A stretch of DNA of 64,000 bases, from contig NZ_JAFFID010000006.1 of the NCBI RefSeq assembly GCF_017355955.1, positions 186,001 to 250,000 on the forward strand, in the 5' to 3' direction. Made by a program: the position numbers and the translations under genes. Source of the DNA: Sabulibacter ruber (GTDB taxonomy: Bacteria > Bacteroidota > Bacteroidia > Cytophagales > Hymenobacteraceae). Positions 34,587 to 63,868 of the stretch are shown here, one piece after another. The first letter of the stretch is position 1, and each line of letters begins with the position of its first letter. A model generated the notes under the pieces. It was not told where the DNA came from. It made no database searches and saw only the letters and a program-made list of their open reading frames with translations.

Positions 34587-37500
34587 ATGAAAATGTACAA
34601 AGTATTCGTGCGTGTAGCCCTGTTCGTCTCCGTCTTGGTCCAGGGTGTAAGCTCCGCCCTGGCCCAGAACGGAGACCAGATATTAGACGGAATTGGGGAA
34701 ACGGGCATGATTGCCCGCTATGTGTTCAATGGCGATCTTAAAGACTGGTCCCGAAATAACTTGCACGCAAAACACCAGGGCACCGAACCCACCTTTGTCA
34801 ATGACAGTAAGTTTGGAAAGGTTTTGTCGCTTTCCGGGAATAATAAAGCCTTTGTTACAATCCCGGGAGAAGCGTTGACAGATTTAGAATCGATCAGTAT
34901 CTCAGGCTGGTTAAATCTGCGTTCAAAGCAACCCGGACAGCGTTTCTTTGATTTCGGGAAGGATGCCACCAAACACTTCTTCGCCGCCCCAGTGGGCACA
35001 AAATCCCAGGAGGGTTTTCAAGCATTGATAACGGAGGGGAAGGGAAATAGGAAAGGAGCGCTTTCCCCGACCACTATTGAAGAAAATAAGTGGGTTCACC
35101 TTGCCATAGTGGTGGATATCCCCTCGAAATCCATCAATACCTATGTAAATGGGAAACCAGTGGGCGAATCCAAGGACATCCCAATGGAGTTGACGGAGGT
35201 ATTCGGTCCGCAACCAGTGCTTTATATCGGGAAATCACTGGTGCCGGGAGACCCTACCCTGAATGCACTGCTCCATGATTTTCGTATTTACCGGGTTCCT
35301 TTGACTGGCCGACAAGTAGCCGGCATCTATACCAACGCCCAGAAAGGCAGGGGAGTCAATGAAGGTTCGGTCAATACGACGGGTAAGCGCGTGGAGGATG
35401 ACCTGCCCCGTTTCCCGCCCACTAAGGCACAGCTGTATACTACCTATTTAGTCAAGGTATCCGATGTGGAAGTGGAAACGGAAGTAGGAAACCTGCCGCG
35501 GTTGCCGGGTTACGTGCCGGGAACCTACAGGGATGGAATGAAAGGACCCAAGGTACGTGTGATATGGCCTGCGGATACAGACAATAGCGCTGTTCTCAAG
35601 CCCGGGCGTTATACCGTTACAGGGCGAGTTGCCGGAACGAATTTCCAACCTAAGGCACTTGTCACGGTTAAAGCGGTCAGTAAATCAACCACACCAAGTC
35701 TAAAGCTGGCCATGTTTGATTTGGATAGGGTTTCTTTGAATACCGATGCAAAAGGCCAGCAAACCCAATTCACCGAGAACCGGGATAAGTTTATCAACAC
35801 GTTAGCTAAAACTGACCCGAACTCCTTTCTCTACATGTTCCGCCATGCTTTCGGTCAGAAACAACCTGAGGGAGCAAAGCCGTTAGGCGTCTGGGACAGC
35901 CAGGACACCAAACTAAGGGGGCATGCCACAGGCCATTACCTCACGGCCATTGCACAAGCCTACGCCGGCACAGGATATGACAAAGCGCTTCAGGCCAATT
36001 TCTCCGGAAAAATGGAGGACATGGTCAATACCCTTTACGAGTTATCCCAATTATCAGGAAAGCCGGTTCAGGCGGGTGGCAAACATGTGTCAGACCCGGC
36101 GGCGGTGCCGTATGGCCCTGGCAAATCGACCTATGACTCAGACCTCAGCGATGGGGGCATCCGGACGGACTACTGGAACTGGGGGGCGGGATATATCAGC
36201 GCTTATCCCCCTGATCAGTTTATCATGCTGGAAAAAGGAGCCAAGTACGGCGGGCAGAAGAACCAGGTCTGGGCGCCCTACTACACACTGCACAAAATAC
36301 TGGCGGGCTTGATGGATGTTTATGAAGTCAGCGGCAACAAAAAAGCGCTTGCCGTAGCCTCTGACATGGGTGATTGGGTCCATGCCCGCCTGTCAAAGGT
36401 ACCCACAGATACGCTTATAAAGATGTGGAACACCTACATTGCCGGAGAGTTTGGCGGCATGAACGAGGCAATGGCCCGGATGTACCGGCTTACCGGCAAA
36501 CCGAACCACCTGAAAACAGCGCAATTGTTCGATAATATCCGAGTTTTTTACGGTGACACCAACCATTCACATGGCTTGGCTAAGAACGTCGATCTTTTCC
36601 GCGGTTTGCACGCCAACCAACATATCCCTCAAATTGTGGGGAGTGTGGAAATGTACCGGGTTTCCAATAATCCGGAATACTACAAAATAGCCGATAACTT
36701 CTGGTATAAGCTGGTCAATGACTACATGTACAGCATTGGCGGAGTGGCCGGGGCACGAAATCCGAACAATGCGGAATGCTTTGTCGCCCAACCGGGCACC
36801 CTGTATGAAAACGGTTTCGCAGCCGGGGGGCAGAATGAAACCTGCGCCACGTACAATATGCTAAAATTGACCAGTGACCTGTTCCTCTTTGATCAGCGGG
36901 GAGAGTTAATGGACTATTACGAGCGTGCGTTATACAACCATATTCTGGCCTCCGTTGCCGAGGACAGCCCTGCCAACACCTATCATGTACCGCTCCGGCC
37001 AGGGGCCTCCAAACAATTCGGCAACCCCAACATGACCGGCTTTACCTGCTGCAACGGCACCGCCATAGAGAGTAGTACCAAGCTGCAAAACTCCATTTAC
37101 TTCAAAAGCAAAGACAACCAGGCGCTTTATGTCAATCTATTCATCCCCTCTACCCTAAATTGGACAGAACGTAAAGTAACAGTAGAACAGTCAACAAACT
37201 TCCCGAGCGAAGACAATACCCGTCTGACGATCAAAGGAAGCGGGAAATTTGACCTTAATGTGCGGGTGCCCGGCTGGGCTACCAAGGGTTTTTTGGTGAA
37301 GATCAACGGCAAAGGGCAAAAGCTGGACGCGACACCAGGCAGTTACCTTAAATTAAGCCGTCATTGGAGAAACGGCGACGTGGTCGAGTTGAAGATGCCC
37401 TTCCAATTTCACCTGGACCCGGTAATGGACCAGCAGAACATTGCCAGTCTCTTTTACGGGCCAATATTGTTGGCCGCCCAGGAGCCCCAGGCAAGGAAAG

Positions 37501-37655
37501 ACTGGCGTAAGGTGACCTTTGATGCCGAAGACATAGGCAAGTCCATCAAAGGCGACCCCCAGCAGCTACAGTTCACAGTTGATGGAGTGGTTTTCAAACC
37601 CTTTTACGAAAGCTACGGCCGTCATTCTGTTTACCTGGATGTCGAGTTGAAATAA
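34587..37655 (+). CDS. Exported GH127/GH146-type beta-L-arabinofuranosidase with LamG-like domain
   Basis: 1022 residues from the ATG at 34587. Signal peptide to about residue 27 (ALAQ). A LamG/concanavalin-like domain (about 38-250) probably binds substrate, and a Big_4-like Ig domain (about 285-365) follows. The catalytic (alpha/alpha)6 barrel with beta domains spans about 380-1020. The Cys/Zn centre known from HypBA1 is recognisable: Glu751 and Cys753 in NETCATYN, and Cys821 and Cys822 in FTCCNGT. These enzymes release L-arabinose from beta-L-arabinofuranosides, including those on plant hydroxyproline-rich proteins. The C-terminal half is closest to the GH127 homologue at 47025. A strong hairpin follows the stop. 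Confidence 0.88.
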   Translation: MKMYKVFVRVALFVSVLVQGVSSALAQNGDQILDGIGETGMIARYVFNGDLKDWSRNNLHAKHQGTEPTFVNDSKFGKVLSLSGNNKAFVTIPGEALTDLESISISGWLNLRSKQPGQRFFDFGKDATKHFFAAPVGTKSQEGFQALITEGKGNRKGALSPTTIEENKWVHLAIVVDIPSKSINTYVNGKPVGESKDIPMELTEVFGPQPVLYIGKSLVPGDPTLNALLHDFRIYRVPLTGRQVAGIYTNAQKGRGVNEGSVNTTGKRVEDDLPRFPPTKAQLYTTYLVKVSDVEVETEVGNLPRLPGYVPGTYRDGMKGPKVRVIWPADTDNSAVLKPGRYTVTGRVAGTNFQPKALVTVKAVSKSTTPSLKLAMFDLDRVSLNTDAKGQQTQFTENRDKFINTLAKTDPNSFLYMFRHAFGQKQPEGAKPLGVWDSQDTKLRGHATGHYLTAIAQAYAGTGYDKALQANFSGKMEDMVNTLYELSQLSGKPVQAGGKHVSDPAAVPYGPGKSTYDSDLSDGGIRTDYWNWGAGYISAYPPDQFIMLEKGAKYGGQKNQVWAPYYTLHKILAGLMDVYEVSGNKKALAVASDMGDWVHARLSKVPTDTLIKMWNTYIAGEFGGMNEAMARMYRLTGKPNHLKTAQLFDNIRVFYGDTNHSHGLAKNVDLFRGLHANQHIPQIVGSVEMYRVSNNPEYYKIADNFWYKLVNDYMYSIGGVAGARNPNNAECFVAQPGTLYENGFAAGGQNETCATYNMLKLTSDLFLFDQRGELMDYYERALYNHILASVAEDSPANTYHVPLRPGASKQFGNPNMTGFTCCNGTAIESSTKLQNSIYFKSKDNQALYVNLFIPSTLNWTERKVTVEQSTNFPSEDNTRLTIKGSGKFDLNVRVPGWATKGFLVKINGKGQKLDATPGSYLKLSRHWRNGDVVELKMPFQFHLDPVMDQQNIASLFYGPILLAAQEPQARKDWRKVTFDAEDIGKSIKGDPQQLQFTVDGVVFKPFYESYGRHSVYLDVELK

Positions 37656-37720: not shown

Positions 37721-37900
37721 GTTCCCTTAGCAGGGTAAACTTGCAATATCCCAGTGCGTTTATTGCCCCGCATTTTCCGGTTCACCAGGGAAAGGTCATT
37801 CCCCAAAACCGTCCACCAACGATTTAAAGGGTCCTAACTATTGGCCAATATCGTTTGTCACTCATTTCTGACCCCTCACCAACTTTCAGAATCACTCACC

Positions 37901-40654
37901 ATGATGTTTGCCAGTATGACGATCATTGCTTCCAAAAGGCTGTCTATGTTAACCAGGCTTGGAGGGATGCTGCTTTTCCTCCCGCTCCAACTTTTTGCCC
38001 AGTCATGGAAGGACCTTGCCCAGCGGCCTGCAACATTGGGCATGGAACAGGGTACAATTTCCTTTCAAACACCTTCTTTTCAGGTTGAATTGGTAAAGGC
38101 CTCCCAAACGGTGTCGGGATTGCACCCGAAGGCTGAGCCGGCTTTTGATTATACACCTGGTGACAGATTGAAAGTGCGTAACAGTAATGGTATGTATCAC
38201 TTGGGTGATTTGACCTTACGGCTCCGGGAGGGCCGGTCAGGCCAGTGGGAATCTTTTTCAACGGCTTCAGAGCGGAAGCCTGTGCAGGCACTCCCCGCAA
38301 AAGGCCCCGTTCTGGCGGGCGCTGATCTGGCCAATACCTTGCCTGCTGATATCCCGCTGACGGTAAAACGGTTCTGGGAGTTGGAGCAAGGGCAGTTGGT
38401 GCTTCGATTCGAACTGACAAACCGCACCACGAACCCCGTGGAGATCGGGGCCCTGGGCATCCCCATGATTTTCAACAACGTCCTGGAGGGGAAAAACCTG
38501 GTTCAGGCCCATGCCCAGAGTGTTTTGTATGATCCTTACATAGGGCAGGATGCTGGTTATCTACAGGTAACCCGTCTGCACGGGAGGGATTCATCCTTGT
38601 TGGTCCTACCCTATGGGGCTTCTCCTTTTGAGGCATATAACCCGTTGAATGATGACCCCACCCCTAGGGGCATAGCCTTTGAGGGTTTCCATGAATGGAT
38701 GGTGCACAGCAAGGCTTTTGCTGAAACTGAATGGAAAACAGCAGTTCCCTGGAATCAACCCACTTCCGTTATCCTAAAACCGGGAGAATCGAGAAGTTAC
38801 GGGGTCCGCTTTGTGCTGGCAGGAGCCCCGCAAAACATTGAAAAGGAATTAATGCAACAAAAACGTCCCGTAGCCGTCGGCATCCCGGGGTATGTCCTGC
38901 CACAGGACGTGAACGGCAAGCTGTTTATTACCTATAACAGCAACGTTCGGAGCATAAAGGCGGAACCAGAAGGAGCTTTAACCATTACCCCTTCCCCCTC
39001 CGGTAAAAACGGATGGAAGGCCTATGCTGTCAAAGGCCAAAAATGGGGAAGAGCAAGGCTGACGATCCAGTACGAAGACGGCTTGGTGCAAACAGTGCAT
39101 TACAAGGTGATCAAACCGGAAAGCGAGACTGTAACCGACTATGGGAAGTTTTTAACGACAAAGCAATGGTTTGAAAAAGAGGGAGATCGCTTTGGCCGAA
39201 GCCCCTCTGTCATTAGCTATGACAATGAGAAAAAACAGCAGGTGTTGGAGGATAACCGGGTCTGGATTGCCGGTCTAAGCGATGAAGGAGGAGCAGGCAG
39301 TTGGCTAGGAGCCATCATGAAGCAATCCGTATTGCCTAATAAGGCAGAGATAGACAAACTGCAGCGGTTTGTTGATGAAACTCTATGGGGCCGAATACAG
39401 GTGGCAGAAGGGCCTGATAAATATGGGGTTCGCAAAAGCCTGTTTTACTATGCCCCTGATTCCATGCCCCCTGGTACCTACAGCATCCCCGCCAACCAGA
39501 AAGTATGGTCTTTGTGGCCCAGGAAGGAAGCGTATTCCTTAGGCCGCTCCTATAACTACCCCCACGTAGCAGCGGCCCATTGGGTGCTGTACCGTTTGGC
39601 CCGTCACCACAAAGGGTTGGTTACTGCCCAATCCTGGGACTGGTACCTAAGCAACGCCTATGAAACAGCCATGGCCATGGTTCGCCTGGCACCGCACTAT
39701 GCTGAGTTCGGGCAAATGGAAGGAACCATTTTTTACATGATCCTGAAGGATTTGAAGGCAGAGGGTAAGAACGAAATGGGCAGTATGCTGGAAGCCGAAA
39801 TGAAGAAGCGAGCCGCCCACTGGGCTTCCCTCCCTTATCCTTTCGGGAGCGAAATGCCCTGGGATTCAACCGGTCAGGAGGAAGTATATATCTGGTCGCT
39901 CTTTTTTGGGTACGAGGAGAAAGCGGATGTTACGTTGAACGCTATCCTAGCCTATATGCCTACCGTGCCCCACTGGGCATATAACGGCAACGCGAGGCGC
40001 TACTGGGATTTCTTGTATGCCGGAGGGTTGCCGCGGGTGGAGCGAATGATACACCATTATGGTTCAGGCCTGAACGCAATACCTGTGCTGGCAGCATACC
40101 GCAGGCAACCGGACAACTTCTATCTACTGCGGGTAGGTTACGGTGGTGTCTTGGGGACCCTCTCTACGATCACGGAGGAGGGATTTGCCCCCGCTGCCTT
40201 TCACAGTTATCCTGCCAGCTTACACAACGACAATCTGTCGGGTGATTACGGCTCAGGGTTCTTTGGCTATGCGGTGAACTCAGCTACTTATCTGGTTCGG
40301 CATCGTGATTTCGGTTGGGTGTCATTCGGCGGCAATGTACGCGAAAAGAACCAATGGGTGGAAGTGCAGCCCACCGCTGCAGGCAGATCGGGTGTGTTCA
40401 TCGCGCCTGCTGGTTTGTGGGTTTCCTTACAGGCAGGAAAGTTGAAAAAAATCTCTTTTCACCCCTCTTCCGGCCAGGTAAGAATACTCCTTGATCCAGC
40501 TGATGCATTCACCCCGAAATCTTTTCTGACTTTTGAGCAGGCAGGCGGAGAGAAATATACATTGAAAACGAAAGGAACGAAGCAGAGAGGTGGTTATGAA
40601 ATCGAACTTTCGGACCAAGAGACCGAAGTGATCATTGCCCGCCTCAAAAAATAA
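37901..40654 (+). CDS. Exported DUF5695-like protein, probable glycan-active enzyme
   Basis: About 917 residues from the ATG at 37901; other ATGs at 37904 and 37916 are possible. A signal peptide ends near QLFAQ. A beta-rich N-terminal region (about 35-360) with supersandwich character precedes a helical, (alpha/alpha)-barrel-like region (about 400-780; RSYNYPHVAAAHWVLYRLARHH, split in structure). A C-terminal beta domain closes the protein. It resembles DUF5695 proteins of gut and soil Bacteroidota from memory. No catalytic residue is established. It sits between two GH127-type genes, so a role on the same arabinosylated substrate is likely. Confidence 0.7.
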   Translation: MMFASMTIIASKRLSMLTRLGGMLLFLPLQLFAQSWKDLAQRPATLGMEQGTISFQTPSFQVELVKASQTVSGLHPKAEPAFDYTPGDRLKVRNSNGMYHLGDLTLRLREGRSGQWESFSTASERKPVQALPAKGPVLAGADLANTLPADIPLTVKRFWELEQGQLVLRFELTNRTTNPVEIGALGIPMIFNNVLEGKNLVQAHAQSVLYDPYIGQDAGYLQVTRLHGRDSSLLVLPYGASPFEAYNPLNDDPTPRGIAFEGFHEWMVHSKAFAETEWKTAVPWNQPTSVILKPGESRSYGVRFVLAGAPQNIEKELMQQKRPVAVGIPGYVLPQDVNGKLFITYNSNVRSIKAEPEGALTITPSPSGKNGWKAYAVKGQKWGRARLTIQYEDGLVQTVHYKVIKPESETVTDYGKFLTTKQWFEKEGDRFGRSPSVISYDNEKKQQVLEDNRVWIAGLSDEGGAGSWLGAIMKQSVLPNKAEIDKLQRFVDETLWGRIQVAEGPDKYGVRKSLFYYAPDSMPPGTYSIPANQKVWSLWPRKEAYSLGRSYNYPHVAAAHWVLYRLARHHKGLVTAQSWDWYLSNAYETAMAMVRLAPHYAEFGQMEGTIFYMILKDLKAEGKNEMGSMLEAEMKKRAAHWASLPYPFGSEMPWDSTGQEEVYIWSLFFGYEEKADVTLNAILAYMPTVPHWAYNGNARRYWDFLYAGGLPRVERMIHHYGSGLNAIPVLAAYRRQPDNFYLLRVGYGGVLGTLSTITEEGFAPAAFHSYPASLHNDNLSGDYGSGFFGYAVNSATYLVRHRDFGWVSFGGNVREKNQWVEVQPTAAGRSGVFIAPAGLWVSLQAGKLKKISFHPSSGQVRILLDPADAFTPKSFLTFEQAGGEKYTLKTKGTKQRGGYEIELSDQETEVIIARLKK

Positions 40655-41020: not shown

Positions 41021-42049
41021 CAGGAAGAAAGGAATACCCAAGGGTTCCCTGTATCCATTCACAGGTAGATTCCAGGTGAAATGCCGGTTTCTACCTGAAA
41101 GATTATCCTACCCCATCTGAACAGGGGATTCTTGGGCCGTTAGCCTTGGCCACGGAAAGAGCATCCTTCCTTTCAGGTATGAAAAACAAAGTGGCTGTTA
41201 AGTAAGAGAAACCAGTACACCTTCCACCAAAGTTACGCTTGGCACTAGCATTCCGGTTCTTCCCAAAAGGAAATGCCGTGAACCCATTTGTTAACCCATT
41301 GTTAATATAGTATCTGTATTAGATAATACAGAAGAGGGGTTACACTGAAGGAAATAGTAGATTTGTCAAGGTGCCGCACTTAGAATCTGGATTGGATAAA
41401 TCTAACTCAGTAGGACATACTAAACGCGAGCGTGATGGCTGCAGATAACCTGGTCTTAAACACATGAAAACCTTTAAGAATATCCTTTAAGGGCAAAGGA
41501 GAGGGGTATTCGGGTATATTACCGAATACAGTTCAACACTTCATCTGAATCAACCTGCATTTAACAAAAGCGGTCATACTATGTTTCAAATATGAAGAAA
41601 CTACTATCTGGAGCAATAATCCCTGTAAATGGTATGAAAATTTATAGGAGACAAAGCGATTGCCTGCCTTAAGGTAGGGTAATCTCGGGATATCGGTCAA
41701 ATGATTCATCCTTTTAGAACTTTTCATATAGAGAATCCACAGAAGAGGTCTGAATAGCTCGGAGCTCCCTCTTTTTTGTGCCCAGAGACACGTTTATTAT
41801 CATTATTCAAAGGGATCGGTTCTATCCTTTCCCCTTAGAAGGTTTGTGTACAGCAGCACTTCCTTCATCTTTGACACCCGCACTGCTGGCGGGTGTTGCC
41901 GGAATGCAGCTTAGGCTGTTCTTTTTACAAAGTTTCTGTCTGTCCATTTTCTCAGATGGCAACCCAGCGCCTCCTGGTACTGGTGGATGGCGCCTCCAGT
42001 TCTGGAGGGTAGGTGAATTCTTTCAATTTGTATTTAAACAATTGGCTTT
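41021..42049. other. Gene-free region before the susC-like gene
   Basis: About 1 kb with no supported gene. It contains the shared element at 41287-41313 and a perfect CCTCCAG-TT-CTGGAGG dyad at 41993-42008, 42 bp before the susC-like start. A frame at 41778-42053 is not protein-like. Confidence 0.55.
41287..41313 (+). promoter_or_regulatory. Shared motif, copy 2 (upstream of susC-like gene)
   Basis: TTTGTTA-N6-TGTTAA-N-ATAGTAT, a 27-bp element identical at all fixed positions to the copy at 46752. The N6 and N bases differ, which argues for a protein-binding site with conserved contacts rather than a recent duplication. Confidence 0.5.
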
Positions 42050-45049: not shown

Positions 45050-45067
45050 GTTTTTAAAAGCATGATC

Positions 45068-53586: not shown

Positions 53587-55251
53587 ATGGTTTCTAAAAC
53601 TCACAGCGTAAAAACCAGTGCTTTGTCTGTCCTTTTCCTGCTTTTGTGGAATACTGCCGCGCAGGCCCAGACCAAGACGTTTACCCGACAGGATACCCTC
53701 CGGGGGAGCATCACCCCGGAACGTGCCTGGTGGGATCTGGCGTACTACCACCTCAACGTGAAGGTGAACCCGGCTGACAGCACCATCAATGGCATGAACG
53801 CCATCACCTATAAGGTTCTCACGCCCAACCAGCGCCTGCAGGTGGATTTGCAGCCGCCCATGCAGATAGAGAAAGTAACGCAGAACGGAAAGGAACTCAC
53901 TTTCACCCGCGACGGCAATGCCTGGTTTGTGCAGTTAGATCTGAAACAGACGAAGGGCGCGGTGAACACCGTGGAGGTATATTACGGCGGCAAACCCGTG
54001 GTGAGCAAGAATCCACCCTGGAGCGGCGGCATCACCTGGAAAAAAGACGCCAACGGCCAACCCTTCGTGGCAAATTCGAACCAAGGCGACGGCGCCAGTT
54101 TGTGGTGGCCCTGCAAAGACCACATGTACGATGAGCCCGACAGCATGCAGATCAGCGTCACCGTGCCGGAGAACCTGATGGATGTCTCCAATGGGAAACT
54201 CCGGGGTGTGACCAAGAATAATGACGGCACCAAGACCTTCCATTGGTTTGTTGCCAACCCCATCAACAACTACGGGGTGAACCTGAGCATTGGCGACTAC
54301 GTGCATTTCTCAGAGAAATTCAAGGGCGAGAAAGGCCTGCTGGATCTGGATTACTACGTCCTGAAAGAAAACCTGGAGAAGGCCAAGGTACAGTTCAAAG
54401 ACGCGCCGCGTATGCTAAAAGCCTTTGAGCATTGGTTCGGCCCGTACCCGTTCTATGAGGACGGTTTCAAGCTGATTGAAGTGCCTTACACCGGCATGGA
54501 GCACCAGAGTGCCGTGACCTACGGGAACGGGTACAAAAACGGGTATCGGGGCAAAGACCCCAGCGGCTCCACCGGTTGGGGCATGAAGTTCGATTTCATT
54601 ATCATCCACGAATCGGGACACGAGTGGTTCGCCAACAACATCACCTACAGAGACATCGCCGACATGTGGATCCACGAGAGTTTCACCAACTATTCTGAGA
54701 ACCTCTTCGTGGAGTATTACTACGGGAAGAAAGCCGGCAGCGAATACGTGATCGGAACCCGTGCCGGAATAGGGAACAAGCAGCCCATCATAGGCGAGTA
54801 CAACGTAAACCACAAAGGCTCCGGCGACATGTACCCCAAAGGCGGCAACATGCTGCATACGCTTCGGCAAGTCGTGAACAATGATAAGAAATGGCGCGAC
54901 ATTCTGCGGGGCCTCAACAAAGAGTTCTACCACCAGACCGTCACTACCCAGCAGATTGAGAACTACCTGAGCAAACACGCGGGCCGTGATCTCACGCCTT
55001 TCTTCAACCAGTACCTCCGCGACATCCGGATTCCCAAGTTTGAATACCAACTCGCCGGCAATACCCTCAAGTACCGCTGGACCAACGCCGTTTCCGGGTT
55101 CGATTTACCGGTGAGAGTGTACCTGAACGGCAAAGTAAAGTGGCTGGAGCCGGTGACCACCTGGAAGGAAATAAGCGGCGTGGAACCCGGAACTGAGCTC
55201 ACCTTGGACCCTAACTTCTATGTGGAGGTCGCCGGTAAAGAGAGCATCTAA
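53587..55251 (+). CDS. Exported M1-family zinc aminopeptidase
   Basis: 554 residues from the ATG at 53587 (MVSKTHSV); the frame is open further upstream without a signal. Signal peptide to about residue 28 (AAQAQ). Gluzincin motif HESGHEWFANN: His341, Glu342, His345, with Glu364 (WIHESFTNY) 18 residues on. The exopeptidase loop reads TGMEHQS instead of GAMEN, a common Bacteroidota variation. It should remove N-terminal residues from peptides in the periplasm or outside. Its place between glycosidases and Hyp catabolism suggests action on deglycosylated Pro/Hyp-rich peptides (inference). Confidence 0.9.
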   Translation: MVSKTHSVKTSALSVLFLLLWNTAAQAQTKTFTRQDTLRGSITPERAWWDLAYYHLNVKVNPADSTINGMNAITYKVLTPNQRLQVDLQPPMQIEKVTQNGKELTFTRDGNAWFVQLDLKQTKGAVNTVEVYYGGKPVVSKNPPWSGGITWKKDANGQPFVANSNQGDGASLWWPCKDHMYDEPDSMQISVTVPENLMDVSNGKLRGVTKNNDGTKTFHWFVANPINNYGVNLSIGDYVHFSEKFKGEKGLLDLDYYVLKENLEKAKVQFKDAPRMLKAFEHWFGPYPFYEDGFKLIEVPYTGMEHQSAVTYGNGYKNGYRGKDPSGSTGWGMKFDFIIIHESGHEWFANNITYRDIADMWIHESFTNYSENLFVEYYYGKKAGSEYVIGTRAGIGNKQPIIGEYNVNHKGSGDMYPKGGNMLHTLRQVVNNDKKWRDILRGLNKEFYHQTVTTQQIENYLSKHAGRDLTPFFNQYLRDIRIPKFEYQLAGNTLKYRWTNAVSGFDLPVRVYLNGKVKWLEPVTTWKEISGVEPGTELTLDPNFYVEVAGKESI

Positions 55252-55606
55252 GTTGCAAGATCATTCAACCTGCTTTTGAGCCTCTTCACCCAAAACGGCT
55301 TAAAACAAGATAGGCTACGCTTGGCAGGGAGAAGCTACGTTTGGTACCTCATGCGCTCATCGCTGATTAAAGCCTGCCCTTTTAAAACCGAGCCCTACAT
55401 GGGGAGATTGATATCGCTGAGATCGAAGATAGAACCTAGGTTGACTATGTCGCTAAAAGCCGAGGCCTAGTGATTATAAGATTTTGGTTTGAAGTTCCCG
55501 GCTACAGCAGACTGCTAATATTGTATCAGGAGATGCTAATATGCTGAACAGAAATTACGGGTTTTACAGACATATTGCAGTACACTTCCATTAAATCCTG
55601 CCTGAA
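55252..55606. other. Intergenic region with degenerate motif copy
   Basis: About 355 bp without a supported gene; a 64-codon frame at 55276 looks non-coding. TGCTAATATTGTAT at 55513-55526 matches the shared locus motif at 12 of 14 bases, and GATGCTAATATGCTG follows nearby. Confidence 0.4.
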
Positions 55607-57922
55607 ATGGTTCACTTCCCCTACCTTCCTACTACCAAGCCGTGCGGGCACAGCTTCGCCTTGAAACAAATCCTGGTTTGCCTGGTCGTTCTCCTGGGTT
55701 CTGCCCAGCTTCGGGCGCAGGGGACCAAGGCCGATTACGAGCGCGCGGAGAAGCTGAAGGCCGCCATGAATACGAAGGTGTATTATGCGCCGTCCCGGTT
55801 CAACTGGCAGGAGGGGAAAGAGTCTTTTTGGTATGTGCGGCAGACGCCCAGAGGGAAAGAGTATATGCTGGTCAATGCCCAGAAACGCTCTAAAAAGCCG
55901 GCCTTCGATCAGCAGAAACTGGCCAGGGAATTATCCGCCGCTTTGGGCAAACCGGTAGAGGCATACAACCTTCCCTTTACGGAGATCACCTTTGTGGAGG
56001 ACGGCAAAGCCCTGGAATTTACTGCCGACGGAACGAAGTGGCGCAGTCCTTTGAACTCCTACAAATTGCAGAACCTGGGCAAAGCAGAGGAGCGCCCCAA
56101 CCGCTACTGGGGCGATAGGGGGAGCGACCAAGGCAACAAACCCGTTCCTTCGCCGGATAAACAATGGGAAGCGTTCATCAAGAACCACAATGTGTATATC
56201 CGTTCGGTTAAAGACAAAAAAGAGGAGTATCAGTTAAGTTTCGATGGGTCGGCCGGAGAGTACTATTCCTCCTTTCTGGAGTGGTCCCCGGACTCAAAAA
56301 AGCTGGCCACCAACCGGGTGCGGCCCAACAAAGAGCATTTGGTGTACCTGATTGAGTCCTCCCCCATGGACCAACTGCAACCCAAGCTCCATTCACGCAA
56401 CTACCTCAAACCCGGCGACGCGCTGCCGCAGCGGGCGCCCCAGCTTTTCCTGGTGGAGGAGAAACGGCAGGTGCCGGTGGACCCGGCGCTCTTCGGGGTG
56501 GGGATGCAGTATGACTTATCCAACCCCAGTTGGCGGAAAAACGGGCAGGCATTTACGGTGGAGTATAACCAACGCGGGCACCAGGCCTACAAGGTGCTGG
56601 AGGTGGATGCGCTCACCGGCAAGGTGCGGGACCTGATCAAAGAGGAAAGCAAGACCTTTATCGATTACAGCGGCAAGCGGTTCCGGCAGGATGTGGGGGA
56701 TGGGAAAGAGATCATCTGGGCCTCTGAGCGCGATGGCTGGAACCACCTTTACCTCTTTGATGGTGCTACTGGCAACGTCAAAAACCAGATCACCAAAGGC
56801 GATTGGGTAGTCAGGAGGGTAATCCACGTAGATGAGAAAAACCGCAGCATCCTGTTTGAAGGCAGTGGCCGCGAGGCGGGACAGGACCCGTACCTGGTGC
56901 AGTATTACCGGGTGAACTTCAACGGCTCCGGCCTGACTGCGCTCACGAAGGAAGACGCCCACCACACCGGTACTTTCTCCTCTGATTTCAAGTATTTTGT
57001 GGACAATTTCTCCCGGGTAGATGTGGCTCCCGTGACGGTGCTCAGAAGCGCGACCGACGGGAAAATTGTGATGGAACTGGAGAAGGCAGACGCCTCCGAA
57101 CTCCCTAAACTCGGTTGGAAGGCCCCCGAGGTGTTCTCAGCCAAAGGTCGCGACGGGCATACGGATATCTGGGGCATCGTGGTGCGTCCTACCAACTTTG
57201 ATCCCGCCAAAACGTACCCGGTCATTGAATACATCTACGCCGGCCCGCACAGCGCGTTTGTGCCCAAGACGTTCAATTCCGGGGCCCGGCACATGCAGGA
57301 ATTAGCCGAGTTAGGCTTTGTAGTGGTGCAGATAGACGGCATGGGTACCTCCAACCGATCCAAAGCCTTTCAGGATGTCGCCTGGAAGAACATCAAAGAC
57401 GCGGGCTTCCCGGACCGCATTGCTTGGATGAAAGCCGCCGCGCAAAAATATCCTTATTTAGACTTGACGCGGGTTGGCATTTTCGGGACTTCCGCCGGTG
57501 GGCAGAGTTCGGCCGGAGCCCTGTTGTTCCACCCCGATTTCTACAAAGTAGCGGTTTCCTCGGCGGGTTGCCATGACAACCGCATGGACAAGATCTGGTG
57601 GAACGAGCAATGGATGGGCTTCCCCATCGGGCCGGAATACGCCGCCTCCTCAAACGTGGTCAACGCCCATAAACTGCAGGGCAAGCTGATGTTGATCTTG
57701 GGCGAAATGGACGACAACGTAGACCCGGCTTCCACGCTGCAGTTGGTGGACGCGCTCATCAAAGCCAACAAAAACTTCGACTTCCTGATGGTACCCGGCA
57801 TGGGGCACTCGTCCGGCGGAGACTACGGTGAGCACAAACGCCGTGACTTCTTTGTGAAGCACCTGCTGGGCGTGGACCCGCCGGCCTGGGAGACGAAGAA
57901 CCAGGAACAGTCCAAAACCTGA
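55607..57922 (+). CDS. Exported S9-family prolyl dipeptidyl peptidase (DPP-IV-like)
   Basis: 771 residues. Signal peptide to about residue 38 (QLRAQ). An N-terminal beta-propeller (about 60-520, with [12 protein letters not shown] and [14 protein letters not shown] blades) is followed by an alpha/beta hydrolase domain. The nucleophile is Ser629 in FGTSAGGQ, the Asp is in GEMDDNVDP (702/703), and the His is in [13 protein letters not shown]-type enzymes release X-Pro dipeptides and often accept X-Hyp, matching the Pro/Hyp-rich backbone expected for extensins (inference). It is convergent with the AraC regulator gene, with a small hairpin between. Confidence 0.92.
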
Positions 57923-57992: not shown

Positions 57993-58901
57993 TTACTCCT
58001 GGGCCGTTTCCACCAGGGAAAAGTCGCTTGTGTACCGGGTGTTGTGGAGTTTCACAAACTCGGTGGGCGTGAAATTGGTGATGTCCTTGAACTGCCGGTT
58101 GAAGTAAGAGATGTTGTCATAGCCGCATTCAAACGCCGTCTCCCGGATGTTCCATTTGTCCTCAATCAGGAGTTTGCAGGCGTGGCCGATCCTGATCTCG
58201 TTCAGGAACTGGGAAAACGTTTTTTGGGTGTGTTGCTTGAAATACCGGCAAAACGCATTCACGCTCATGTTGGCCACGTTGGCGGCATCACTGAGTTTGA
58301 TGTCCTCAGAGAAGTTGTTCATGATATAGTTGAAGACATCGTTGATTTTCCGGTTATCAGATTCGTTTAGGTTGGCATTGAAGCCCACCGAGGAAAGCAT
58401 TTCCACTTCAGTGGAGTGGGAGAGCAGGTTCAGAATGATGAGAACCTGAATAATCCGCTCGAATCCTTTCATGGAACGCATGTCCTGAATCAGGGCCAAA
58501 ACCTTTTTCTTGGTGTCGCCCTTGATGCATAGGCCGCGCTTGCTGTTGAGCAATAATTTTTGCAGCGCATGGGCCTCAGGGAGCGAGAAAAGGTTATCTT
58601 CAAAGGAGGCAAGATCCACAAACACTGAGATGTTGGTGGCTTTAAGCTCCGAGGCAGGTTCGTAGTACTTTTTGTCGTTCCGGAACACGTGCGGAAGGTT
58701 AGAGCCCAGGACAAAAATGTCTCCCGCCCTGAAACTTCCGATGCTGTCTCCTATGAACCGGGTACCCGTGCTTTCGCAGATCACCATGATCTGCAGCTCC
58801 GGGTGAAAATGCAGGTTTTCATAGAAATGGCGCTGCTCATCATACTGAACCCGGACGGATTCGCCTGAGGTTTTCGGGATTTTGAAATGTAAGGGTTTCA
58901 T
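57993..58901 (-). CDS. AraC-family regulator of the hydroxyproline genes
   Basis: 302 residues from the ATG at 58901 (MKPLHFKIPK). An N-terminal cupin sensor (about 20-110) has HFHPELQIMVI, GDSIGSFRAGDIFVLG and LPHVFRND. The C-terminal double HTH (about 200-290) has IKLSDAANVANMSVNAFCRYFK and IRETAFECGYDNISYFNRQFK. Divergent from the Hyp catabolic operon across 210 bp, so it is the likely sensor of hydroxyproline or a pathway intermediate (inference). Cupin/AraC regulators of this shape are typical of catabolic operons in this phylum. Confidence 0.88.
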   Translation of the reverse strand: MKPLHFKIPKTSGESVRVQYDEQRHFYENLHFHPELQIMVICESTGTRFIGDSIGSFRAGDIFVLGSNLPHVFRNDKKYYEPASELKATNISVFVDLASFEDNLFSLPEAHALQKLLLNSKRGLCIKGDTKKKVLALIQDMRSMKGFERIIQVLIILNLLSHSTEVEMLSSVGFNANLNESDNRKINDVFNYIMNNFSEDIKLSDAANVANMSVNAFCRYFKQHTQKTFSQFLNEIRIGHACKLLIEDKWNIRETAFECGYDNISYFNRQFKDITNFTPTEFVKLHNTRYTSDFSLVETAQE

Positions 58902-59111
58902 GGTTTGGGTAAGGAAAAGGTAGGGTAAGAACGTACCTAAATTTAGCCAACATAATTGATAAAAAGGCACAAGCAGCCTAATTGATAATTCTGTATCACC
59001 AATGGGTAAAATGTAGGAATTCCCTTCGGACCCTTTCAGCTAGTTTTGTTAAGCTCTTATACACGTCTAGAAATCATAAAATCAAATACAGTAACATTAA
59101 AAAAGCACGCC

Positions 59112-60047
59112 ATGAATGTACAATGGAAAGGAGTTTTCCCCGCTGTCACCACCAAGTTCACGGAGCATGACCGACTTGATATTCCTGCGTTTCTGAGCAA
59201 TATTGAGGCTCAGTTGAATGCCGGGGTGGACGGGATCATTTTAGGGGGGACCTTAGGGGAAGCCAGCACCTTGACAGATGAGGAAAAAGCAACTCTGGTG
59301 ATGGAAACCGTTGCTTATGTAGAAGGAAGGGTGCCTGTGGTGATGAACATAGCCGAGCAGTCCACTGCCAAGGCGATCCAGGCGGCCGAGGAAGCCCGCA
59401 AGAACGGGGCGAGTGGACTCATGATGTTGCCGCCCATGCGCTACAAAGCAGATGGCCGGGAAACCGTAACATATTTCAGATCAGTGGCCCAGTCCACGGA
59501 TCTGCCCATCATGATCTACAACAACCCCATTGACTACCGCATTGAGGTGACGCTGGATATGTTCGAAGAACTGGCCGAAATGGACAATATCCAGGCAGTG
59601 AAGGAGTCCACCCGTGAAGTAGGCAACATCACCAAGATGCGGAACCGCTTCGGAGACAGGTTCAAAATCCTTTCCGGCGTGGATACCCTGGCGCTGGAAA
59701 GCCTGGTACTGGGGGCCGATGGCTGGGTAGCCGGTTTGGTCTGCGCTTTCCCAGCCGAGACGGTGGCTATTTACAAACTGGTGAAAGCAGGCCGCTTTGA
59801 GGAAGCCGTGAAAATCAACCGATGGTTCTATCCACTGCTGGAATTGGATGTGCATCCTAAGCTGGTTCAGAACATCAAGTTGGCCGAAGTCTGCACGAAC
59901 CTGGGAACGGAGGCCGTACGTCAGCCTCGGCTGCCTTTGGAGGGCGCTGAGCGCGCACAAGTGTTGGCTATCATCAACGAGGCGCTGGAGAACCGTCCGG
60001 CTCTGCCAGATTTTGAAACAGAAAAGGAACTGATCACCTCCCTGTAA
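59112..60047 (+). CDS. DHDPS-family lyase, probable 1-pyrroline-4-hydroxy-2-carboxylate deaminase
   Basis: 311 residues from the ATG at 59112. DapA-type TIM barrel: GGTLGEASTLTDEEK near residues 42-56 and the Schiff-base lysine Lys164 in QAVKEST. In the D-hydroxyproline route this enzyme deaminates the cyclic imine made by the D-Hyp oxidase to 2-oxoglutarate semialdehyde. Three downstream genes for the epimerase, oxidase and semialdehyde dehydrogenase make this assignment much better than lysine biosynthesis. A hairpin overlaps its stop codon, so downstream genes may be expressed less. Confidence 0.9.
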   Translation: MNVQWKGVFPAVTTKFTEHDRLDIPAFLSNIEAQLNAGVDGIILGGTLGEASTLTDEEKATLVMETVAYVEGRVPVVMNIAEQSTAKAIQAAEEARKNGASGLMMLPPMRYKADGRETVTYFRSVAQSTDLPIMIYNNPIDYRIEVTLDMFEELAEMDNIQAVKESTREVGNITKMRNRFGDRFKILSGVDTLALESLVLGADGWVAGLVCAFPAETVAIYKLVKAGRFEEAVKINRWFYPLLELDVHPKLVQNIKLAEVCTNLGTEAVRQPRLPLEGAERAQVLAIINEALENRPALPDFETEKELITSL

Positions 60048-60086: not shown

Positions 60087-60147
60087 CGCTTGATAGATCA
60101 TCTTGGTTTACAGAGCGAAAAGCTTATATTTAAAAGGACCAAAATCA

Positions 60148-61611
60148 ATGCAAAGCATGCCGCTTGATCAAGTGCTTCAAACCGCCGAGGAAGCCTTCCA
60201 TACCTACAAAAAGGCATCTGCCCAAGGAAAGGCCAACTTTCTGCGGGCTATCGCCACCGAGATAGAACAATTAGGCGAGGAGCTGTTGCAGGTAGCCAGC
60301 CAGGAATCCAATCTGCCCTTGGCGCGCCTCACCGGAGAACGGGGCCGGACCATGAACCAGCTCAAGGCCTTCGCCGATCTTCTGGAGCAGGGCGGCTGGC
60401 TAGAGGCCACCATTGACCCCGCTTTGCCCGACCGGCTCCCCCTTCCCAGACCAGATCTGCGCCGCATGCTGTTTCCACTGGGACCGGTAGTGGTGTTTGG
60501 GGCCAGTAATTTCCCCTTGGCTTTCTCCACGGCCGGTGGAGACTCTGCCTCGGCGCTGGCCGCTGGCTGTCCGGTGGTGTACAAAGAGCACCCGGGGCAC
60601 CCGAAAACCTCTCAGCTGGTATTCGGGGCCATCCAACAGGCTCTGGGCTCATGCGGTTTGCCGGCTGGGGTTTTCCAGCACGTAAGCGGCGGCATTGAGG
60701 TGGGGCAGGAGCTAGTAAAGCACCCCAAAACCAAGGCCGTGGCGTTCACCGGCTCCTACAGAGGCGGCAAAGCCATTTTTGACCAAGCCTGCCAACGCGA
60801 ACAACCCATTCCGGTGTATGCCGAAATGGGAAGCATCAACCCGATTTTCGTGCTGCCCGGGAAAGCGGAAGCGGAAACCACTGTTCTGGCGGAGCAGGCG
60901 GCAGCCTCCGTGTTGCAGGGCGTAGGGCAGTTCTGTACCTGCCCAGGCTTGGTCTTCTATCCGCAATCCTCAACCACGGAAGCCTTTTTGGAGCTACTTT
61001 CCCAGAAACTGGGCGAATCCGCCGGCGATAAAATGCTGCATGAAGGCATCTCCAAGAACTACTACCAGGGCCTGACCAGGTTATTGGCCGAAAGCGGCGT
61101 TGAAACTCTGGTGACGGCGGAGGAAGATGTATTGACCGGCCACGCCGCCTTGGCCAGAACCAACGTGCAGGAGTGGCTGAAAAACACCGCGTTGCAGGAA
61201 GAGGTCTTCGGACCGTTCACTTTGGTGGTGACCTATAGCGACATGGCAGAACTGGAGCAGGCGGCGGAAGTGCTGCAGGGCCAGCTCACCTGCACCATCT
61301 GGGGAACCACAACTGAATTAGCTGCCGCTGGGAACCTTGTGGACACAGTGCGCGAGAAATGCGGCCGATTGTTGTTCGCCGGCGTGCCGACGGGCGTGGA
61401 GGTAAGCCCGGCCATGACCCACGGCGGACCATTCCCGGCTACCTCAGACAGCCGCAGCACCTCGGTGGGAACCAACGCCATCAAGCGTTTTGCCCGCCCT
61501 ATCACCTTCCAATCGGCGCCGCAGGACCTGCTGCCCGATGAATTAAAAGATCAGAACCCCCTTTCCATCTGGCGTACCGTGGATGGACAGTTCACCAAAG
61601 ACCCCATTTAA
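60148..61611 (+). CDS. 2-oxoglutarate semialdehyde (2,5-dioxopentanoate) dehydrogenase
   Basis: 487 residues from the ATG at 60148. Aldehyde dehydrogenase fold: GPVVVFGASNFPLAFSTAGGD (NAD-binding start, here split between residues 110-130), VAFTGSYRGG, general-base Glu226 in EMGSINP, nucleophile Cys263 in GQFCTCPG. The sequence type is the alpha-ketoglutaric semialdehyde dehydrogenase class seen in Hyp and sugar-acid operons. It oxidises the product of the lyase to 2-oxoglutarate, which enters the TCA cycle. The Glu and Cys residues are intact. It lies 6 bp before the epimerase gene. Confidence 0.92.
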   Translation: MQSMPLDQVLQTAEEAFHTYKKASAQGKANFLRAIATEIEQLGEELLQVASQESNLPLARLTGERGRTMNQLKAFADLLEQGGWLEATIDPALPDRLPLPRPDLRRMLFPLGPVVVFGASNFPLAFSTAGGDSASALAAGCPVVYKEHPGHPKTSQLVFGAIQQALGSCGLPAGVFQHVSGGIEVGQELVKHPKTKAVAFTGSYRGGKAIFDQACQREQPIPVYAEMGSINPIFVLPGKAEAETTVLAEQAAASVLQGVGQFCTCPGLVFYPQSSTTEAFLELLSQKLGESAGDKMLHEGISKNYYQGLTRLLAESGVETLVTAEEDVLTGHAALARTNVQEWLKNTALQEEVFGPFTLVVTYSDMAELEQAAEVLQGQLTCTIWGTTTELAAAGNLVDTVREKCGRLLFAGVPTGVEVSPAMTHGGPFPATSDSRSTSVGTNAIKRFARPITFQSAPQDLLPDELKDQNPLSIWRTVDGQFTKDPI

Positions 61612-61617
61612 TCCTTT

Positions 61618-62619
61618 ATGGCAAGAAAAACCTTCTTCTGTATTGATGCCCACACCTGCGGGAACCCCGTGCGCCTGGTGGCCGGGGGCGGCCCCGTTTT
61701 GCAGGGCGCCAACATGAGCGAAAAGCGCCAGCACTTCCTGCAGGAATACGATTATATCCGGAAAGGCCTTATGTTTGAGCCGCGCGGCCATGATATGATG
61801 TCGGGCAGCATTCTGTATCCGCCGCATGACCCGGATAACGACGTCGCCGTGTTATACATCGAGACCAGCGGTTGCCTGCCCATGTGCGGTCACGGCACCA
61901 TCGGTACCGTCACCATTGCCATTGAAGAAGGCTTGATCACGCCCAAAACACCCGGCGAATTGCGTTTGGAAGCACCCGCCGGCCTGGTGAAAATAAAATA
62001 CACCCAAGAAGGCAAAAAGGTAAAATCAGTGAAACTGACCAACGTAGCCTCTTACCTGGAGGCGGAAGGCCTGACGGTGGAATGCCCGGAGTTGGGCGAG
62101 TTGAAAATAGATGTGGCCTACGGCGGAAATTTCTACGGCATCATTGATCCGCAGGAGAACTTCCCCGGCCTGCAGGAGTTCACCGCCGATAAGCTGATTT
62201 CCTGGAGCCGGGTGATACGGGAGCGCATGAACGAGAAATACAGCTTCGTGCACCCAGAGAACCCCACCATCAAAGGGATGAGCCATGTGCTCTGGACCGG
62301 CGATACGCTGCAACCGGCTTCCACGGCCCGTAATGCCGTTTTCTACGGCGACAAAGCCATAGACCGATCGCCCTGCGGCACCGGAACCTCGGCGCGCATG
62401 GCCCAGTGGTACGCAAAAGGAAAGTTGAAGCCGGGCGATGTGTTTGTGCATGAAAGCTACATCGGGTCAATCTTCAACGGCACCATTGAGGGCGAGACCA
62501 CCGTCGCCGGCAAACCCGCCATTCTGCCCGGCATCGAAGGCTGGGCCATTGTTACGGGGCTCAACACCATCTTCTTTGATGACGAAGACCCTTATGTCCA
62601 CGGATTCCAAGTGATTTGA
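61618..62619 (+). CDS. 4-hydroxyproline 2-epimerase (proline racemase family)
   Basis: 333 residues. The cofactor-independent racemase/epimerase fold has two catalytic cysteines: Cys90 in PMCGHGTIG and Cys253 in DRSPCGTGTSAR, so it is not a dehydratase-type relative (which has Thr or Ser in place of the second Cys). It interconverts trans-4-hydroxy-L-proline and cis-4-hydroxy-D-proline, the entry step of the pathway. Context with oxidase, deaminase and semialdehyde dehydrogenase supports Hyp over proline. It is separated from the oxidase gene by 1 bp. Confidence 0.93.
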   Translation: MARKTFFCIDAHTCGNPVRLVAGGGPVLQGANMSEKRQHFLQEYDYIRKGLMFEPRGHDMMSGSILYPPHDPDNDVAVLYIETSGCLPMCGHGTIGTVTIAIEEGLITPKTPGELRLEAPAGLVKIKYTQEGKKVKSVKLTNVASYLEAEGLTVECPELGELKIDVAYGGNFYGIIDPQENFPGLQEFTADKLISWSRVIRERMNEKYSFVHPENPTIKGMSHVLWTGDTLQPASTARNAVFYGDKAIDRSPCGTGTSARMAQWYAKGKLKPGDVFVHESYIGSIFNGTIEGETTVAGKPAILPGIEGWAIVTGLNTIFFDDEDPYVHGFQVI

Positions 62620-62620
62620 T

Positions 62621-63868
62621 ATGAGCAGAGTTACCATTGTAGGGGGCGGCATCATCGGCCTTTTTACCGCTTACTATTTGTCTGAAGAAGGCTTTGAGGT
62701 CACCATTATTGACAGAGGAGATCTGTCCAACAGCTGCTCCATCGGCAATGCCGGCATGATCGTGCCCAGCCACATCGTGCCGCTGGCCTCGCCCGGCATC
62801 ATCGCCAAAGGCATGAAGTGGATGCTTTCCTCTACCAGCCCCTTTTACATCCACCCGAAGCTGGATCTGCGCCTGGCCCAGTGGTGCCTGCTTTTCTACA
62901 AGGCAGCCACCAAAAAGCACGTGGAATACAGCATTCCCTACCTGAAAAACCTGAGCCTGTACAGCAAAAACCTGTACGTGGACTTCGCCGGTAAGCACAA
63001 CTCCCCGGAAGTAGGCTTTCAGGAAAAAGGCCTGCTGATGCTGTATAAATCCGAAGAAGCAGCCCACGAGGAAGTGGAATTCGCGCATCTGGCCCGCAAA
63101 CACGGCCTGGAAACCGAAATCCTTTCACCGGACGAGGTGAAGCAACTGGAACCTCATGCCGGCATGGACGTGCGGGGTGGGGTCTTTTTCCCCGGCGACG
63201 CCCATTTGAATCCCTCGCAGTTGCACGCGTATTTGGTGCGGCACTTAGAACAGAAAGGCGTGAAGATTGTGCGCCATGCCGAGGTGCTGGACTTTGCCAC
63301 CTCCGGGAGAACCGTCACCTCCGTCATCACCGACAAAGGCGAGTTTGCCTCTGACCAGGTCATCATCGCGGCTGGGAACTGGGCCGGTGAGGTGGCCCGC
63401 AAGCTCAAGATCACCATGCCCATGCTGGGCGGTAAAGGCTACAGTTTCCTCACCAAAAATTCCCCCGCTATTCAGCGTCCGGCTATCCTCACCGAAGCCC
63501 GCGTGGCGGTGACCCCTTTCGGGGAACAGGTACGGTTTGGCGGCACCATGGAAATCACCAATGACAACACCAGCATCAACCTGAACCGGGTAAAAGGGAT
63601 CCATAATTCCATCTCCAAATATTACGGCGGTTTTCAGGCCGATTTTCCGGAAAAAGATAAAATCTGGAGCGGGCTGCGTCCGTGCTCGCCAGACGGTCTG
63701 CCCTACATCGGCGCAACCAGTCGCTGGAACAATGTGTTTTTTGGCACCGGCCACAGCATGATGGGCCTCAGCCTGGCGCCCGCCACCGGCAAGCTGCTCA
63801 CCCAGGAACTCCTGAACCAGAAATCATCCGTGGGCATAGACGCCTTCTCGCCGGATCGGTACAGTTAA
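62621..63868 (+). CDS. FAD-dependent D-amino-acid oxidoreductase, probable cis-4-hydroxy-D-proline dehydrogenase
   Basis: 415 residues. DadA/DAO-type fold: the N-terminal Rossmann motif VGGGIIGLFTAYYL, SIGNAGMIVPSH near residue 42, and the C-terminal FAD contact GLRPCSPDGLPYIG with TGHSMMGLSLAPATG. It oxidises cis-4-hydroxy-D-proline to the cyclic imine handled by the DHDPS-family lyase, passing electrons onward (family knowledge). It directly follows the epimerase gene and completes the four-step set in this window. Confidence 0.92.
   Translation: MSRVTIVGGGIIGLFTAYYLSEEGFEVTIIDRGDLSNSCSIGNAGMIVPSHIVPLASPGIIAKGMKWMLSSTSPFYIHPKLDLRLAQWCLLFYKAATKKHVEYSIPYLKNLSLYSKNLYVDFAGKHNSPEVGFQEKGLLMLYKSEEAAHEEVEFAHLARKHGLETEILSPDEVKQLEPHAGMDVRGGVFFPGDAHLNPSQLHAYLVRHLEQKGVKIVRHAEVLDFATSGRTVTSVITDKGEFASDQVIIAAGNWAGEVARKLKITMPMLGGKGYSFLTKNSPAIQRPAILTEARVAVTPFGEQVRFGGTMEITNDNTSINLNRVKGIHNSISKYYGGFQADFPEKDKIWSGLRPCSPDGLPYIGATSRWNNVFFGTGHSMMGLSLAPATGKLLTQELLNQKSSVGIDAFSPDRYS

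Follow-up and report, generated by a model that had tools for sequence, protein, structure and literature searches.

A 64,000-nucleotide stretch of the 6.16-Mb Sabulibacter ruber assembly (contig NZ_JAFFID010000006.1, C189:186001-250000; hereafter the window) carries the beginning of a gene block that is probably a utilisation regulon for plant, and possibly also green-algal, hydroxyproline-rich glycoproteins, with extensin first among them. The block begins at 34.3 kb and extends ~24 kb beyond the window end, to about window coordinate 88557. An extensin or hydroxyproline-rich glycoprotein utilisation locus had been proposed here in an original prediction based on the window's letters, and gene content, conserved linkage and shared operator-like sites support that reading. 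The genes it had grouped into a single locus are indeed joined, in a locus nearly twice as long as the 30 kb that it gave; its end point was 63868 because the window edge falls there. Coordinates below are window positions unless prefixed L003 or L004, which are genome stretches past the window end, and counts for six Rufibacter comprise the source genome and five congeners.

Genes were called by Pfam and NCBIfam profile searches of open reading frames (ORFs) in the window and its flanks. Every gene named in the original prediction is present as an uninterrupted frame, including three intact GH127/GH146-type enzymes (one HypBA1-like), SusC and SusD (SusCD), an M1 peptidase, a DPP-IV and an NSS symporter, and their co-occurrence is above chance and conserved. 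DUF5695, GH97, GH51, aminopeptidase P and DUF885 genes, missing from the earlier list, also belong. Those added beyond the window are a second DPP-IV, aminopeptidase P, DUF885, GH97, GH2, a second HypBA1-like GH127 and GH51. The features are as follows.

34306..34332 (+): operator-like site 1, upstream of LamG-GH127/DUF5695, 248 bp ahead of the annotated start
34581..37655 (+): LamG, Big_4 and GH127-type catalytic domain, 1024 aa (Pfam); likely start ATG 34587
37841..40654 (+): DUF5695, 937-aa frame, candidate PL27-like lyase (Pfam, predicted fold, recurrence)
41303..41329 (+): operator-like site 2, 720 bp upstream of SusC
42050..45049 (+): SusC-like TonB-dependent transporter (Pfam)
45062..46660 (+): SusD-like lipoprotein (Pfam; by eye, Cys after a signal-like N-terminal stretch)
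46768..46794 (+): operator-like site 3, upstream of GH146
47025..49424 (+): GH146-type beta-L-arabinofuranosidase, 799 aa (Pfam GH127-type catalytic domain, PDB match)
49525..51489 (+): HypBA1-like GH127 beta-L-arabinofuranosidase, 654 aa (Pfam; signal-like N-terminus)
51602..53293 (+): NSS (LeuT-like) Na+ symporter (Pfam)
53473..55251 (+): M1 metallopeptidase (Pfam; HEXXHX18E present)
55516..55542 (+): operator-like site 4, upstream of DPP-IV
55607..57922 (+): S9 DPP-IV-type peptidase, 771 aa (Pfam)
57993..58970 (-): AraC-family regulator (Pfam), divergent from the hydroxyproline operon
58986..59012 (+): operator-like site 5, in the intergenic gap separating araC from that operon
59046..60047 (+): DHDPS-family deaminase, putative pyrroline-4-hydroxy-2-carboxylate deaminase (Pfam and operon position); likely start ATG 59112
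60103..61611 (+): aldehyde dehydrogenase (ALDH), putatively acting on 2-oxoglutarate semialdehyde (Pfam)
61618..62619 (+): 4-hydroxyproline epimerase, HypE (NCBIfam NF010578; Cys90 and Cys253)
62621..63868 (+): FAD-dependent D-amino-acid dehydrogenase type, putatively acting on D-hydroxyproline (Pfam)
63961..64000, on to L003:1733 (+): DUF885 gene (Pfam; signal-like N-terminus)
L003:1895-4108: second DPP-IV
L003:4207-6189: GH97
L003:6516-9764: GH2
L003:9917-11302: aminopeptidase P
L003:11575-11601 (+): operator-like site 6, upstream of the second GH127
L003:11650-14139: second HypBA1-like GH127
L003:15187-19844: SusC2/SusD2
L004:1948-4557: GH51

The SusC2/SusD2 pair and a 338-aa gene ahead of GH51 were not found at that position in the five other Rufibacter.

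Extensin serine bears alpha-galactose (Ser-O-alpha-galactose). Its hydroxyproline (Hyp) carries the textbook glycan Araf-alpha1,3-Araf-beta1,2-Araf-beta1,2-Araf-beta-Hyp, as given in the available text of PMC6085000. Judged by family, the GH51, GH127/GH146 and GH97 enzymes would match each bond of these glycans. The 654-aa GH127 protein has the PF07944 catalytic domain above its curated cut-off along with the middle and C domains (356.8, 85.7 and 88.2 bits). In an alignment counted by eye, it retains the zinc Cys3-Glu of Bll1HypBA1 (E338, C340, C417, C418) and the substrate-site residues H142, Y145, H194 and R273; the equivalent of HypBA1 Glu322, which we take to be the acid/base residue, is conserved as well. 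The accessible part of PMC10850190 describes these zinc ligands for a GH146 enzyme and states that they are identical in HypBA1; the substrate-site roles are taken from the same text. The nearest PDB entry to the 799-aa protein is 5opj/BT0349 (E 1e-151), with GH127 4qjy at only 9e-20, which places it in GH146. Pfam matched the catalytic domain of LamG-GH127 in two stretches, and its zinc-motif residues ETC and CC are in place. Among PDB entries, GH97 falls with the retaining alpha-galactosidases (3a24, 8e-166; 5e1q, 7e-165) and matches alpha-glucosidases at 1e-65 or weaker. No endo-arabinanase or GH43 set of the kind found in an arabinan polysaccharide utilisation locus (PUL) was found among the Pfam-annotated block genes.

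A SusC/SusD pair clusters with these glycosidases, the arrangement by which a PUL is recognised. The DPP-IV, aminopeptidase P and M1 peptidases would suit a proline-rich backbone. All four trans-4-hydroxyproline catabolic enzymes had been claimed for the locus. The epimerase is identified by an equivalog, scoring 601 bits against a cut-off of 376 for NF010578 (4-hydroxyproline epimerase) and keeping Cys90 and Cys253, presumably the catalytic cysteines. The other three are assigned by superfamily and position only, as the dehydrogenase, DHDPS-family and ALDH proteins have no NCBIfam equivalog above cut-off (for two of them, among the best 25 families listed).

Gene order is preserved in all five congeners that have the epimerase, and the remaining 10 of 15 congeners lack both the epimerase and the 654-aa GH127. 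Loss of synteny in close relatives, which the original prediction had said would count against it, was therefore not seen. The preserved order is SusC, SusD, [GH146], GH127, [NSS], M1, DPP-IV, araC and the four hydroxyproline genes, then DUF885, DPP-IV, GH97, [GH2], aminopeptidase P, GH127 and GH51, where brackets mark genes that some congeners lack or carry in broken form. Exceptions are GH97, which lies in two frames in G014, and GH51, of which only a piece was found in G011. Among 39 relatives searched, seven family genomes have the epimerase at ≥87% identity; the same seven and no others have the 654-aa GH127 at ≥80%, always within 15 kb of the epimerase. Both Pontibacter genomes in the first comparison have most of the same parts clustered in a reshuffled order, and rearranged clusters also occur in genus g6 of the same family. 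The epimerase was matched in 39 of 200 family genomes, with 31 full-length and 8 weak matches. Eleven of the 31 have a GH127-type gene within 15 kb (the six Rufibacter including the source, G017, G022, and G127, G192 and G194 of g6). A GH127-type gene lies at about 28 kb in G174 and a GH146 within 10 kb in G088, G206 is split across contigs, and the other 17 belong to the Pontibacter genus.

We then searched 395 Bacteroidota genomes for the epimerase (E up to 1e-80) and the GH127-type catalytic domain (E up to 1e-50). The epimerase is present in 77 (76 besides the source), and 41 of the 76 also have the GH127-type domain. The two genes are ≤30 kb apart in 15 of the 41, where random placement would give 1.06 (P about 3e-14), and ≤15 kb apart in 11, against 0.53 expected (P about 3e-12); these P values lack correction for relatedness. 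As a weak control, no GH3 gene was within 30 kb of the epimerase among the matches listed (51 same-contig rows, inspected by eye), the nearest being at 34 kb.

The best 80 of 360 GTDB relatives of the 654-aa GH127 were used for neighbourhood comparison and a tree. Twenty-one, including 16 from outside Rufibacter, have an epimerase or DHDPS gene in the neighbouring stretch; these are minimum counts, because a Pontibacter locus (L057) scored as unlinked has its epimerase 13 kb off. Linkage was found for 12 of the 45 with at least 9.5 kb on both sides. On the tree, the linked label requires seven changes, at least five of them forced by well-supported branches. In Lacibacter luteus (L102), the genes for DHDPS, ALDH, a VPS10/BNR protein, epimerase, GH127, GH146 and dehydrogenase run on one strand with gaps from a few to about 500 bases; GH127/GH146 are placed between epimerase and dehydrogenase here and in others. 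Clustering of ORFs from 34 linked and 20 HypE-only loci (our own labels), made to look for a further conserved gene, returned accessory genes among the cluster representatives scanned: an amino-acid permease, GH51, BshC, a GFO/IDH/MocA oxidoreductase, a VPS10-domain protein, an aldose epimerase, a glutaminase A type, YceI, DUF5777 and an arylesterase/SGL-type protein. A further cluster (8 linked, 0 unlinked) probably consists of antisense shadow ORFs of the aldehyde dehydrogenase and was left aside.

The units of the locus also share an upstream sequence. Alignment of upstream regions from the six Rufibacter and two Pontibacter yielded one 30-bp element with two TAAT-type half-sites 21 bp apart, which precedes the hydroxyproline operon, DPP-IV and the second GH127. 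A position weight matrix (PWM) built on seven sites located more before GH146, SusC and LamG-GH127. When trained on the hydroxyproline-operon and DPP-IV sites only, the PWM still recovers a site of 31.9 bits before GH146, one of 25.5 before SusC, one of 23.9 before the second GH127 and one of 20.3 before LamG-GH127, and it picks up two weaker sites (17–18 bits) ahead of SusC2. With this same PWM, the 36 kb that precede the window gave no match reaching 15 bits, and 20 Markov copies of the 104-kb stretch gave none reaching 18 bits; eight matches of at least 18 bits came from 2.05 Mb of other loci, some being hydroxyproline loci. A 27-bp pattern, TAAYATNGTATNANNATTGGNTAANAT, allowed up to three mismatches, has six matches in the 6.16-Mb genome, each on the + strand and ahead of a unit of the locus; a reversed-pattern control has none there. 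There are five to six matches per genome in the six locus-bearing Rufibacter and four in total in the ten Rufibacter without the locus. The site before SusC was found by PWM in all six Rufibacter and exceeds three mismatches in the other five. Since the glycosidase, SusCD, peptidase and hydroxyproline units all have such a site ahead of them, common control is predicted, and we infer that the neighbouring AraC protein binds the tandem sites.

The LamG-GH127/DUF5695 pair (34.6–40.7 kb) was at one point considered foreign to the system, initially on the ground that it does not adjoin the block in four of five congeners. This idea was dropped because the same pair lies beside hydroxyproline genes in other families and the operator lies upstream of the displaced copies. 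LamG-GH127 is displaced in G003, G004, G011, G014 and G022, with a site about 130–256 bp ahead in all five and DUF5695 behind it in three. DUF5695 was found in 14 of 395 Bacteroidota genomes. Nine of the 13 other than the source have the epimerase, compared with 67 of the remaining 381 (Fisher P 9e-5, uncorrected for relatedness). DUF5695 is ≤20 kb from the epimerase in seven of the nine with both, and six of the 13 have a LamG-type GH127 about 3 kb or less from DUF5695. A phmmer search of DUF5695 against PDB sequences gave no match at E up to 1. Its AlphaFold model (pLDDT 73, pTM 0.79) matches the PL27 enzyme BACCELL_00875 with Z 22.4 over 585 residues at 15% identity (Foldseek E 1e-23), the next other entry scoring 12.7. 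Matches to GH94-type phosphorylases and mutarotase-like sandwiches were rejected, as they covered single domains or had large rmsd. A DUF6055 gene follows GH51 (L004:5433-6875, +); it is syntenic in G002 (90%), and a homologue follows DUF5695 in G412 (55%), so it may belong to the system.

The predicted DUF5695 fold bears on the substrate. PL27 enzymes liberate rhamnose from gum arabic, an arabinogalactan protein (AGP), according to the accessible text of PMC8377490, and the regulon may therefore reach beyond extensin. AGPs or green-algal hydroxyproline-rich glycoproteins may also be substrates. An alternative that we regard as possible, if on the doubtful side, is that the locus serves AGPs or a mixture of hydroxyproline-rich glycoproteins, including those of green-algal walls, the beta-arabinofuranoses of AGP side chains being cut off before the hydroxyproline core is used. 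The modelled resemblance of DUF5695 to an L-rhamnose-alpha-1,4-D-glucuronate lyase would fit this, as would the GH2 beta-galactosidase in the block and the ability of GH146 to act on AGP (PMC10850190, in the part available). However, no exo- or endo-galactanase family (GH43, GH16, GH30) occurs among the Pfam-annotated block genes, and an alpha-galactosidase-clade GH97 with several GH127/146 enzymes suits Ser-Gal and Hyp-Ara better.

For control of the locus, the sites might serve another regulator, such as an arabinose sensor encoded elsewhere, with arabinose and not hydroxyproline as the trigger. The AraC-type reading is based only on the 21-bp tandem spacing and position, and single sites occur in some genomes without the locus. 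Against this, all six Rufibacter have a site in the gap that separates araC from the hydroxyproline operon, and sites accompany hydroxyproline genes in Pontibacter loci (G040, G128) whose examined stretch contains no glycosidase, GH127 included; we consider another regulator unlikely.

Several observations weigh against an extensin-type regulon. The block genes annotated include no GH121 (HypBA2) or GH43 (HypAA) in the style of Bifidobacterium and Xanthomonas, and GH127/GH146 enzymes are also used in AGP and pectin breakdown, as the portion of PMC10850190 at hand describes. Of the 41 phylum genomes that have both marker genes, 26 do not carry them within 30 kb of each other and count against linkage or are undecided owing to contig breaks, and G034, from another family, has the epimerase (75%) and GH127 (57%) on different contigs. 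All six Pontibacter loci read (13.5–20 kb each) have peptidases and hydroxyproline genes with no GH127 therein. As for the sites, the genome-wide pattern test has some circularity, since locus sites contributed to the pattern; this applies less to the comparison with other genomes. The reversed pattern matches five times in the other 17 genomes. Three genomes have one match each without a known tie to the system (G003, C20; G004, C3; G011, C25), and no block protein matches were found in the G004:C3 stretch, L213. No PWM site of 15 bits or more is present in the loci of four g6 genomes. L213 (G004:C3:944001-962000) holds two operator-like sites, at 8981 and 17845 (25.9 and 20.8 bits), and none of the system's genes; a near-identical site occurs in G007, which is without the locus, so sequences of this kind may also be recognised by a related regulator.

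In five of the six GH127-free Pontibacter loci, one or more operator-like sites score at least 18 bits. The peptidase and hydroxyproline part thus also exists without extensin sugars, which suggests that glycosidases were recruited to a peptide and hydroxyproline regulon that predates them or also occurs independently. Chance adjacency of an arabinan- or pectin-type GH127 locus and a collagen-type peptide and hydroxyproline locus would agree with these Pontibacter loci, with the separated genes in the 26 phylum genomes and with the common occurrence of GH127 without HypE in g6, but it is very improbable given the interleaved glycosidase, peptidase and hydroxyproline order kept in five of five congeners, the similar clusters in other families, one operator type ahead of both kinds of unit, and no endo-arabinanase family among the Pfam-annotated block genes.

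Under the favoured reading, a hydroxyproline-rich glycoprotein regulon, substrate, localisation, regulation and each enzyme activity are proposed as follows. Deglycosylation would take place outside the cell, where GH51 would act first on the alpha-linked arabinose at the end of the chain, leaving the beta-linked arabinoses to be trimmed down to hydroxyproline by the GH127 and GH146 enzymes, and GH97 would cleave alpha-galactose from serine. SusCD would import glycan or glycopeptide pieces. M1, the two DPP-IV enzymes, aminopeptidase P and possibly DUF885 would degrade the proline/hydroxyproline-rich backbone, with imino acid or small peptides taken up by the NSS symporter. The four hydroxyproline enzymes would convert trans-4-hydroxyproline to 2-oxoglutarate inside the cell. 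The AraC regulator, whose ligand is probably hydroxyproline or a product of the pathway, would bind the 21-bp-spaced tandem repeats and turn the units on together.

Parts of this system resemble known ones. It shares GH127/GH146-type beta-L-arabinofuranosidases for Hyp-linked arabinosides with the hypBA1/hypBA2/hypAA cluster of Bifidobacterium longum and its Xanthomonas counterpart (PMC6085000, in the part available; PMC7263609), and a prolyl oligopeptidase-like gene described as broken adjoins the Xanthomonas cluster (PMC6085000, same portion). The available part of PMC6085000 does not mention hydroxyproline catabolic genes; GH121/GH43 are found there and GH51/GH97 here, and SusCD, a peptidase set and the hydroxyproline pathway are added in this locus. 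SusCD, clustered glycosidases and a local regulator are features of Bacteroidota PULs; unlike in these, a peptidase set and an amino-acid catabolic operon stand here under what is apparently the same operator. The usual PUL regulators are SusR or hybrid two-component systems, in place of which this locus has a small AraC protein. As in trans-4-hydroxyproline catabolic operons, all four enzyme types are adjacent and an araC gene is divergent; unlike in a plain operon of that kind, they are joined to glycosidases, peptidases and SusCD. By its predicted fold, DUF5695 resembles PL27 L-rhamnose-alpha-1,4-D-glucuronate lyases (BACCELL_00875). An in silico prediction of extensin use in Latescibacteria likewise read GH127 as an extensin enzyme, and in its available text describes no linkage to hydroxyproline catabolism or shared regulation (PMC4454575). 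In a search of open-access literature, no title or start of an abstract among those listed linked GH127 to hydroxyproline catabolism; subscription papers lay mostly outside this search, and absence from print is not claimed.

Genes around the block were also annotated. A 364-aa protein at 28794-29885 (+) matches Pfam APOBEC_N (39.8 bits against a cut-off of 25) as well as NAD1 and SNAD4, and its HAE and SPCGxC motifs are kept in G014, G049 and G130 (74, 71 and 55% identity). Its distribution is patchy: 4 of 150 family genomes, counting the source, match strongly and eight more weakly. It is a candidate bacterial AID/APOBEC-like cytidine deaminase. The five consecutive genes directly upstream (22600-28867, +; 296, 252, 447, 696 and 371 aa), none of which matches Pfam at E up to 0.001, perhaps form one cassette with it. 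A sigma-54 activator at 32525-33916 (+), with RtcR_PspF2 as best PADLOC match (292 bits), comes after M20 peptidase and amidohydrolase genes. A haem uptake set at 10750-18479 (+) consists of a TonB receptor, an HmuY-domain protein, a periplasmic binding protein, a FecCD permease, an ABC ATPase and HemS/ChuX. Just past the locus lie an AbiEii nucleotidyltransferase and a DUF6088 partner, resembling a type IV toxin-antitoxin pair (L004:8257-9953, -), and an integrase-core (rve) protein is at L004:17779-18567.

Extensins are an abundant class of cross-linked plant wall proteins, and to our knowledge little is known of microbial consumption of both Hyp-arabinosides and hydroxyproline. We give roughly even credence to a broader view, in which such loci form an undescribed and recurrent Bacteroidota regulon class for full mineralisation of hydroxyproline-rich plant or algal wall proteins, from the glycan through the peptide backbone to hydroxyproline itself, under one hydroxyproline-responsive AraC switch, apparently assembled more than once (GH127, GH146 and GH51 lie inside hydroxyproline gene runs), with DUF5695 as a new lyase family acting on arabinogalactan-type caps. 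If the regulon reading is right, sugar removal, proteolysis and an amino-acid pathway would be one regulated unit, a hydroxyproline epimerase adjoining GH127 would be a genomic marker of this lifestyle, and DUF5695 would gain a concrete, testable activity.

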